Origin: Deltaproteobacteria bacterium
Lineage (GTDB): Bacteria; Campylobacterota_A; Desulfurellia; JAGGSF01
Assembly: GCA_021159235.1 (NCBI GenBank)
Contig: JAGGSF010000024.1
Location: 1-5,574 of the forward strand
Reading direction: 5' to 3'
DNA length: 5,574 bases
Shown here piece by piece: positions 1,501 to 3,248 of this stretch. The notes below the pieces were generated by a model that was not told where the DNA came from, did not search any database, and saw nothing but the letters and a program-made list of their open reading frames with translations. Each line of letters starts with the position of its first letter. Within the stretch, counting starts at the first letter, position 1. Position numbers and translations under genes: made by a program.

Positions 1501-1529
1501 AATATAGTTAAAGATATTTGTTTTGACAA
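1501..1529 (-). promoter_or_regulatory. Possible minus-strand promoter at the repeat edge
   Basis: TTGTCA (1529-1524) and TATATT (1506-1501) are separated by exactly 17 bases, each 5/6 to the sigma-70 consensus. The predicted start of transcription falls at about 1495, almost on the ATG at 1493, which would make the message nearly leaderless and leave the GGAG outside it. That conflict keeps confidence low. The -35-like box is the outer edge of the first hairpin repeat. Confidence 0.25.
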
Positions 1530-1624
1530 CTGCTATAAGCAGTTGCAAGCAAACACTTCTGGTGTTTGTCTTGACAACTCTCGTAGAGAGTTGCAAGCAA
1601 ACAACTTTGTTGTTTGTCTTGACA
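1523..1624. repeat. Tandem 48-bp double-hairpin repeat: two units plus the edge of a third
   Basis: Unit 1 is 1523-1570, unit 2 is 1571-1618, and a third copy survives only as TTGACA (1619-1624). Each unit holds two abutting hairpins. Unit 1: CAACTGCT/AGCAGTTG (1527-1545, ATA loop), then 1546-1573, an 11-bp stem with one bulged T. Unit 2: CAACTCTC/GAGAGTTG (1575-1593, GTA loop), then 1594-1621, a 12-bp stem with the same bulge. The units are 37/48 identical, and every difference lies in the hairpin tips. Four base pairs change between units and all are compensated (G-C to C-G, C-G to T-A, T-A to C-G, C-G to A-T), so structure rather than sequence is kept. The 48-bp period is also 16 codons, so frames run open through it, but no gene is inferred. 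It lies in the divergent intergenic region. Confidence 0.9.
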
Positions 1625-1682: not shown

Positions 1683-3248
1683 ATGAAGGTATCCACAGTA
1701 GAGGAGATGCGAAACTTGGATAGACGTTCAATGGAAGAATGCGGTTTCCCGCAGGAGATGTTGATGGAAAATGCAGGTGAGGCTGCATACTTCGTTATAC
1801 TAAAAGATTTTGGTGTAAAAAATAAGAGATTTGTTATCTTTTGCGGTATAGGCAACAATGGTGGAGATGGTCTTGTTGTCGCCAGAAAGATTCATTCTAA
1901 CGGTGGAGATGTAAAGATATATCTTCTGGGTGATGAGAGAAAATTCACAGGTGCAGCAAGAATGAATTTTGAGATTGCGTCTAAGATACCCCTGAATATT
2001 GAACATGTTGAATCCCTTGAAGCTGTAAAATTGGATATTTTACATTCGGATGCCGTAGTAGATGCAATATTTGGCACAGGTCTGAAAAGAAATGTGGAGG
2101 GCATATATAAAGATGTTATTCAATTGATAAACGAAAGCGGGAAGAAGGTGTTCAGCATAGATATACCATCCGGCATAAACGGCAACACGGGAAAGATAAT
2201 GGGTGTCGCTGTAAAATCAGATTATACTATAACCTATGGTCTTCCCAAATTAGGAAATATGTTATATCCGGGATATGACAGGTGTGGAAAATTGTATGTT
2301 TCGCACATATCTTTTCCTCCCTCCCTCTATGATTCAATAAAAGTGGAAACAAATGACCCCATAAAACTACCGGAAAGAGTTAAGGATGCACATAAGGGAG
2401 ATTTTGGAGAAGCTTTGTTTATTGCAGGTGCGTCCAGCTATTTTGGAGCTCCATATTTTTCTGCGCTATCTTTTTTAAAGGCAGGAGGAGGATACTCAAG
2501 GTTAGCTGCACCTCTATCCGTTACGCCATTTATAGCTAACAAGGGTAGCGAGATAGTATTTATACCGCAGAAGGAAACCTCTTCAGGGAGTATATCTTTG
2601 GAAAATAGAGATAGCTTGTTAGAGCTCTCGGAGAAAGTGGATATGGTTATATTAGGTCCTGGATTGTCGTTAAATGAAGAAACACAGAGGTTGGTAAGGG
2701 AATTGGCAGAGGAGATTGAAAAACCGCTTATAATAGATGGGGATGGAATTACAGCAGTTTCTAAGGATGTAGAAATAATAAAGAAGAGAAAGAAAGAGAC
2801 AATCCTTACTCCTCATCTGGGTGAAATGTCTCGGATTACTAAATTGAGCGTAAAAGAGATAGATGAAAACAAGGTAGAGGTATTACGGAAAACATGCGGG
2901 GAGTTGAATGCCATTATTGTTTTGAAAGGAGCTCATTCCTTGATAGGATATCCCGATGGGAGGGTTTTTATAAATATGAGTGGAAACTGTGGTATGGCTA
3001 CCGCAGGTTCTGGTGATGTTCTAACTGGGACAATTGCCGCTATGTTTGGTTTGGGGTTGAATATTTTTGATGCGGTGAGAATGGGTGTTTTCATGCATGG
3101 ATTTTCTGGGGATCTGGCGGCTATGGATAAGGGAGAAGATGGGATAACAGCACAGGATATATTACACTATCTTCCCAATGCTATGAAATATTATAGAGAG
3201 AGTTTTGATGAGGTTTTTAAAGAGAACTACGAACTTCAGGTTATATAG
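1683..3248 (+). CDS. nnr: Bifunctional NAD(P)HX epimerase / ADP-dependent NAD(P)HX dehydratase
   Basis: 521 residues, the usual length of the fused YjeF-type enzyme. It repairs hydrated, inactive NADH and NADPH in the cytoplasm: the N-terminal half interconverts R and S forms, and the C-terminal half dehydrates the S form using ADP (ATP in eukaryotes). Epimerase domain, about 1-215: MENAG (28-32), GIGNNGGDG (55-63), VDAIFGTGL (126-134, Asp127), SIDIPSGING (158-167, Asp160). Dehydratase domain, about 225-505, ribokinase-like: HKGDFG (237-242), then LGPGLS, DGDG, LTPHLGEM, VLKGAHS, and GSGD at 442-445 with the probable catalytic Asp445, then GEDGITAQDIL. Both halves look intact. The ATG at 1683 has an SD at good spacing and begins the conserved N-terminus. 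A dehydrogenase that uses the same cofactors follows 9 bases after the stop, in the same operon. Confidence 0.96.
   Translation: MKVSTVEEMRNLDRRSMEECGFPQEMLMENAGEAAYFVILKDFGVKNKRFVIFCGIGNNGGDGLVVARKIHSNGGDVKIYLLGDERKFTGAARMNFEIASKIPLNIEHVESLEAVKLDILHSDAVVDAIFGTGLKRNVEGIYKDVIQLINESGKKVFSIDIPSGINGNTGKIMGVAVKSDYTITYGLPKLGNMLYPGYDRCGKLYVSHISFPPSLYDSIKVETNDPIKLPERVKDAHKGDFGEALFIAGASSYFGAPYFSALSFLKAGGGYSRLAAPLSVTPFIANKGSEIVFIPQKETSSGSISLENRDSLLELSEKVDMVILGPGLSLNEETQRLVRELAEEIEKPLIIDGDGITAVSKDVEIIKKRKKETILTPHLGEMSRITKLSVKEIDENKVEVLRKTCGELNAIIVLKGAHSLIGYPDGRVFINMSGNCGMATAGSGDVLTGTIAAMFGLGLNIFDAVRMGVFMHGFSGDLAAMDKGEDGITAQDILHYLPNAMKYYRESFDEVFKENYELQVI

Follow-up and report, generated by a model that had tools for sequence, protein, structure and literature searches.

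The double-hairpin repeat described here is a mobile 48-base DNA unit limited to one Desulfurellaceae genus. It was found as a tandem pair in a 5,574-nucleotide stretch of DNA (contig JAGGSF010000024.1 of assembly GCA_021159235.1), the whole of which is referred to as the window. We regard it as reasonably probable that a non-autonomous mobile palindrome of about 48 nt is present here in two copies, head to tail, and that this unit is targeted to TTGA and moves as a single strand in an IS200/IS605- or REP-like manner. The family, its covariation, its target, its in-frame and tandem insertions, and its placement at −35 boxes are all shown by the sequences, and the comparison of sister genomes shows that the unit is mobile. 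The genomes compared are the window's own (G000, a 1.13-Mb draft in which the window is contig 61) and the other two genomes of the genus (G001 and G002).

Architecture of the Repeat

Two 48-bp units in direct repeat, at positions 1527–1574 and 1575–1622 of the plus strand, form four abutting hairpins, and the tandem arrangement in the original prediction is confirmed in the sequence. The general formula of the unit is [CAA-hairpin1-TTG]-CAAG-[hairpin2]-CTTGA, in which a T bulge may precede the terminal motif, (T)CTTGA. Among the aligned units of the family, CAAG is invariant and CTTGA is nearly so. The left flank, TTTGA (1522–1526), is the presumed pre-existing target (N)TTGA and occupies the same position as the TTGA that precedes the insertions at the empty sites of sister genomes. 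Unit 1 (covariance-model hit 1522–1574, E 1.4e-12) consists of hairpin 1 (1527–1545, CAACTGCT-ATA-AGCAGTTG), the CAAG linker (1546–1549), a putative guide that can pair with the CTTG to its left or to its right, and hairpin 2 (1550–1568, CAAACACT-TCT-GGTGTTTG) with a T bulge at 1569. The CTTGA at 1570–1574 terminates unit 1 as the proposed right cleavage site and doubles as the start site for unit 2 (covariance-model hit 1570–1622, E 8.1e-14). Unit 2 repeats the order with hairpin 1 (1575–1593, CAACTCTC-GTA-GAGAGTTG), CAAG (1594–1597), hairpin 2 (1598–1616, CAAACAAC-TTT-GTTGTTTG), a T bulge at 1617, and a terminal CTTGA (1618–1622), all on the plus strand. A search for an empty ortholog of the window array found none, and the G001 ortholog (locus L130) is likewise occupied.

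Pairing and Compensated Changes

Between the two units, hairpin 1 differs at three stem pairs (G-C to C-G, C-G to T-A, and T-A to C-G) and hairpin 2 at one two-sided pair (C-G to A-T). The four changed stem pairs are thus all compensated, as first noticed; a one-sided change in hairpin 2, from a T.G wobble to C-G, had been left unmentioned. Folding of positions 1517–1630 gives z = −5.9 for the plus strand and −6.5 for the minus strand, and none of 200 shuffles folds as well. In an alignment of 24 distinct units, 92.4% of the cells pair and double changes occur at 12 pairs, counts that are conservative for hairpin 2 since the alignment contains length variants. The covariation score of these 24 units is 0.361, compared with 0.133 (sd 0.014) for column shuffles, none of 500 of which reaches it, and with at most 0.083 in slid versions of the alignment. 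The proposal that selection or a copying mechanism preserves the pairing is supported, as pairing is kept by double changes across the 24 units.

The hairpins also vary in other ways. A loop is found in both orientations on five hairpin backbones, for example CAACTGCC-TCT-GGCAGTTG and CAACTGCC-AGA-GGCAGTTG, and in orthologous arrays the edges are kept while whole hairpins are replaced (window and L130; L121 and L147; L139 and L207). The compensated tips may have originated by drift, with pairing restored either through selection for foldability or through template-switch correction of quasi-palindromes.

A Family Confined to One Genus

The sequence AGTTGCAAGCAAACA has four exact occurrences at three loci in the window's genome, and its reversed control has no match. 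The pattern CTTGACAAN{3,25}TTGCAAG has 8, 39, and 15 matches in G000, G001, and G002, respectively, none with the reversed control, and at most two in each of 96 other genomes. A covariance model built from 24 units has 14, 65, and 30 hits in the three congeneric genomes, partly double-counted because some represent one array read on both strands, whereas 22 further genomes from the class yield a single marginal hit (at most one per genome). In a strict-pattern scan of about 85,000 named genomes, matches are confined to this genus. Family units were sought in IMG/VR viral contigs (with the pattern), plasmids, and phages, with no match, and an Rfam scan of the whole window matched no curated RNA family. 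The original prediction of a dispersed palindromic repeat family was therefore right, the family being spread through three genomes of one Desulfurellaceae genus; the outcomes named as contrary to it, a lack of further copies or tips that do not pair, are absent, since further copies exist and their tips pair. The genomes are all draft metagenome assemblies, several of which break at arrays. Several G001 contigs end inside arrays (L130, L135, and L136), so copy number is probably underestimated. A separate observation is a dCTP deaminase-like ORF of 602 aa (L010:2750–4558, minus strand) that is apparently interrupted by an intein (CYDKETELLTLDGW ... NGKACWSSNCW).

Filled and Empty Sites in Sister Genomes

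Over the compared stretches, G001 and G002 are about 92–98% identical, and G000 is more distant at about 82–90%. Comparison of the sister genomes yielded two clean empty sites, one in the ksgA coding region and one in a promoter, and one tandem gain. In ksgA, the empty G002 locus (L173), which reads TTTCTCTTGATATAAAG, is joined as TCTTGA|TATAAAGGA, and the filled G001 locus (L172, G001:C61 near 6218–6270) carries exactly 48 bp after TCTTGA. This insert is in frame near the C terminus and adds 16 codons with no stop. At the promoter site, the empty G002 locus (L210), GTATTGA|TTTGCTG, reads GTTTGTATTGATTTGCTG with TATAAT 17 bp beyond TTGATT, and the filled G001 locus (L166) has 47 bp inserted after ATTGA that end in CTTGA. 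Because the target there was ATTGA, the right-hand CTTGA at L166 is element-borne. The tandem gain, L154 versus L216, is of 48 bp after TCTTGA.

These junctions place the insertion point immediately 3' of (C)TTGA and show that the unit brings along the CTTGA of its right end rather than duplicating its target, the latter on the basis of one site. Each unit's end supplies a fresh target, which makes tandem stacking possible. Array-free TTGA −35 boxes are present in G000 at the rplM, tRNA-Gly, L191, and L183 (ispD-like) promoters; those at rplM, tRNA-Gly, and the L191 gene are unoccupied TTGACA boxes where G001 or G002 carry arrays. The orthologous pairs at L143, L152, and L140 are too divergent for a clean empty site. 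Two further loci illustrate changes in array size. L134 (G001:C28:329–620) contains a tandem run of six near-identical units, against a single one in G002, a recent array expansion, and L221 (G000:C1) holds a short derivative with a single hairpin, TTGACAAATGTTCTGAGGTTTGCTTGACA, whose G002 counterpart is a complete unit that precedes a tRNA gene.

Insertion at Promoter −35 Boxes

At the right edges of the family, the element's CTTGA and the adjoining host bases, usually CA, together read TTGACA. In the window, the rebuilt −35 box of the downstream promoter (TTGACA, 1619–1624, plus strand) takes TTGA from the element and CA from the host. It is followed after 16 bp by a −10-like GATAAT (1641–1646), which the G001 ortholog L130 has as well, and then by the gene for a bifunctional NAD(P)HX epimerase/dehydratase (YjeF_N + Carb_kinase, 1683–3248, plus strand). 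A −10-like hexamer, defined by 4 or more of 6 matching positions, lies 16–18 bp past the right-edge −35 box in 28 of 33 independent arrays. Distant spacings in the same flanks contain one in 7–12 of 34 cases, and the adjoining, overlapping 14–16 bp window in 25; among control sites the proportion is 23% for CTTGA and 30% for TTGACA. Since CTTG was a requirement in the detection of right edges, their uniformity is partly built in. Several arrays precede tRNA genes.

The original prediction drew attention to outer edges reading TTGACA and TTGTCA. The right edge proves to coincide with a −35 box, that of the promoter that follows, and this box contains the target TTGA, but the left TTGTCA is not a promoter feature of the family, as left edges taken as a class are not above control as divergent promoters on the opposite strand. 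In the window, TTGTCA (1529–1524) and TATATT (1506–1501), separated by 17 bp on the minus strand, form a weak divergent promoter-like pair (1501–1529) before a minus-strand ORF with its ATG at 1493, which may be due to chance. The arrays sit at −35 boxes because the target TTGA is part of the −35 consensus and the box is re-formed on insertion; they may accumulate there because insertion is tolerated.

Proposed Movement and Candidate Enzyme

In IS200/IS605 elements, a guide sequence at the 5' base of a hairpin selects the tetranucleotide at which the transposase cuts single-stranded DNA, and the hairpins of REP elements have a comparable foot (PMC6006769, PMC8266576). The unit may move as single-stranded DNA in the same way. 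The CAAG on the 5' side of hairpin 2, at its foot, would act as the guide, pairing with the CTTG of the target on the left and with that of the element end on the right, and a Y1 HUH-type nuclease would cut 3' of CTTGA. Such an enzyme would recognize the hairpin shape and CAAG/CTTG rather than the tip sequence. In the REP elements of S. maltophilia, loop inversion impairs cleavage (PMC8266576); contrary to the expectation from that system, inverted loops are common in this family.

No intact mobilizing enzyme was found in the search for one, and the sole Y1 (PF01797) protein in G000 and G001 is altered. This single-copy protein of 322 aa (L167:1462–2430, L168:1462–2430; contigs G000:C6 and G001:C37) is REP_Tyr_transpos-like, has a DnaA-like C terminus, and scores below the NCBIfam cut-off. 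It carries CFH in place of HuH (HxH in its relatives) and YIHLKP in place of Y---NP (YIHLNP in its relatives), and these two changes in catalytic motifs make it only a weak candidate mover. The G000 and G001 copies nevertheless show purifying selection (dN 0.06, dS 0.51), and the protein is possibly a repurposed Y1 protein. No units lie beside its gene within the 3.3 kb examined in G000 and G001, and for proteins that carry this DnaA-like C-terminal domain (subclass 2.1), no REP-like sequences were found in the vicinity (PMC6006769). No such protein was found in G002, where the entire stretch is missing from the assembly. The mover may have been lost, may be unconventional, or may be absent. 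The window also encodes an apparently intact IS110-family RNA-guided transposase near the contig end (4344–5303, minus strand; NF033542, 152.8 bits against a cutoff of 140). It was set aside as the mover, being 2.7 kb away, with none noticed in passing beside other arrays.

Alternative Explanations

If the mover is absent, the main rival is microhomology template switching without any transposase, to which we assign a minor but real chance. A strand ending in TTGA would jump to an array, copy one unit up to the next CTTGA, and jump back, and the same hairpin-driven switching would give rise to both the compensated tips and the inverted loops. Such switching accounts for exact one-unit gains between TTGA and CTTGA, the lack of an intact enzyme, tandem growth (the six near-identical units in G001:C28 versus one in G002), whole-hairpin replacement at orthologous arrays, and the loops inverted in five hairpin pairs. 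However, homology of only four to five bases is scant for jumps among distant loci, and precise single-unit gains at fresh sites together with the restriction to TTGA look enzymatic. It is improbable that the arrays are instead regulatory DNA (an operator, an UP-element-like sequence, or a supercoil-sensitive cruciform) selected upstream of promoters. The strong −35 placement, which includes tRNA and rplM promoters, would agree with this, but the TTGA target already explains placement, orthologous promoters in a sister species lack an array (rplM, tRNA-Gly, and L191), unit number and hairpin sequence vary between orthologous arrays, and one copy lies within the ksgA coding region.

A classical MITE mobilized by a DDE transposase, with CTTGA as the target duplication, is very improbable, even though the majority of copies have CTTGA on both flanks (it is present at 31 of 38 left edges). 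The left edges vary (TTTGA, GTTGA, ATTGG) while the right edges are CTTGA, partly as imposed by the search; at one site, L166/L210, an ATTGA target on the left is matched by CTTGA on the right, which is not a target-site duplication; and no terminal inverted repeat extends past CAA/TTG. We give almost no credence to a small-RNA array of the TIGR stem-loop or CRISPR-like type in which the tips are spacers. The alternation of two conserved and two 9-nt variable parts per tandem unit does recall TIGR dual-repeat arrays (PMC12045711), but each variable part is complementary to itself, dozens of loci have their array upstream of a promoter, the window proteins scanned include no match to a Nop-domain or Cas gene, and Rfam is without a match.

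Relation to Known Mobile Palindromes

The family is a CAAG-tagged, new form of REP-like mobile palindromes. It shares with REP, BIME, and REPIN elements and their TnpA_REP (RAYT) systems short, dispersed, clustered, and species-specific palindromes with a tetranucleotide foot; as in REP/REPIN, the palindromes are multi-copy and their stem pairing is conserved. Compensatory stem changes are common in REP elements (PMC3116915), which occasionally insert in frame in genes (PMC6006769). Unlike REP/REPIN, the foot in the aligned units is CAAG/CTTG rather than GTAG/GTGG or CGTC, the unit has two hairpins with one central tag common to both ends, −35 boxes are entered at a TTGA target and rebuilt, and no repeats flank the tnpA_REP-like gene, whose Y1 catalytic motifs are altered. 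Because the tag differs and no linked tnpA_REP gene is flanked by the repeats, the family is not filed as REP.

As in IS200/IS605 elements (IS608, ISDra2), insertion occurs on the 3' side of a short, fixed target that is not duplicated, the ends are hairpins, and the cleavage site has its complement in a guide (PMC6006769, PMC8266576). Insertion of this kind is seen at L172/L173 and L166/L210, with the absence of duplication resting on one site, and the putative guide is the conserved CAAG at the hairpin 5' foot facing CTTG. In contrast to IS200/IS605, the unit is only 47–48 nt with no internal gene, the left and right cleavage sites are nearly identical (CTTGA), and one guide apparently serves both ends. 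The family is not filed as a proven IS200/IS605 derivative because the Y1 protein has CFH and YIHLKP instead of HuH and the motif with the catalytic Tyr. By analogy, it may work like both REP and IS200/IS605. The double-hairpin elements of fungal mitochondria and the repetitive hairpin elements of sponge mtDNA are also mobile hairpin repeats of unclear enzyme. They differ from this family in compartment and sequence, and we know of no −35 targeting by them. TIGR arrays are similar in that each of their tandem units combines two conserved parts with two variable ones of roughly 9 nt (PMC12045711), but here the variable parts are palindromic and the units are dispersed at promoters; no TIGR-type Nop-domain Tas protein was found beside the array among the window proteins scanned.

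Significance

Little is understood of how REP-like palindromes spread, and empty sites that document it directly are scarce; the sister genomes compared here provide one-unit insertions and a defined target. Insertions in core promoters are apparently tolerated because the target lies inside the −35 consensus, which is then rebuilt. More tentatively, the CAAG guide could make the −35 box a landing site that the element's end regenerates, so that a parasite might build up cheaply in essential promoters (tRNA, ribosomal protein) through a non-canonical Y1 protein or no enzyme at all. The turnover of tips and the inverted loops among close relatives also preserve, as a natural record, the ways in which stem changes come to be compensated.
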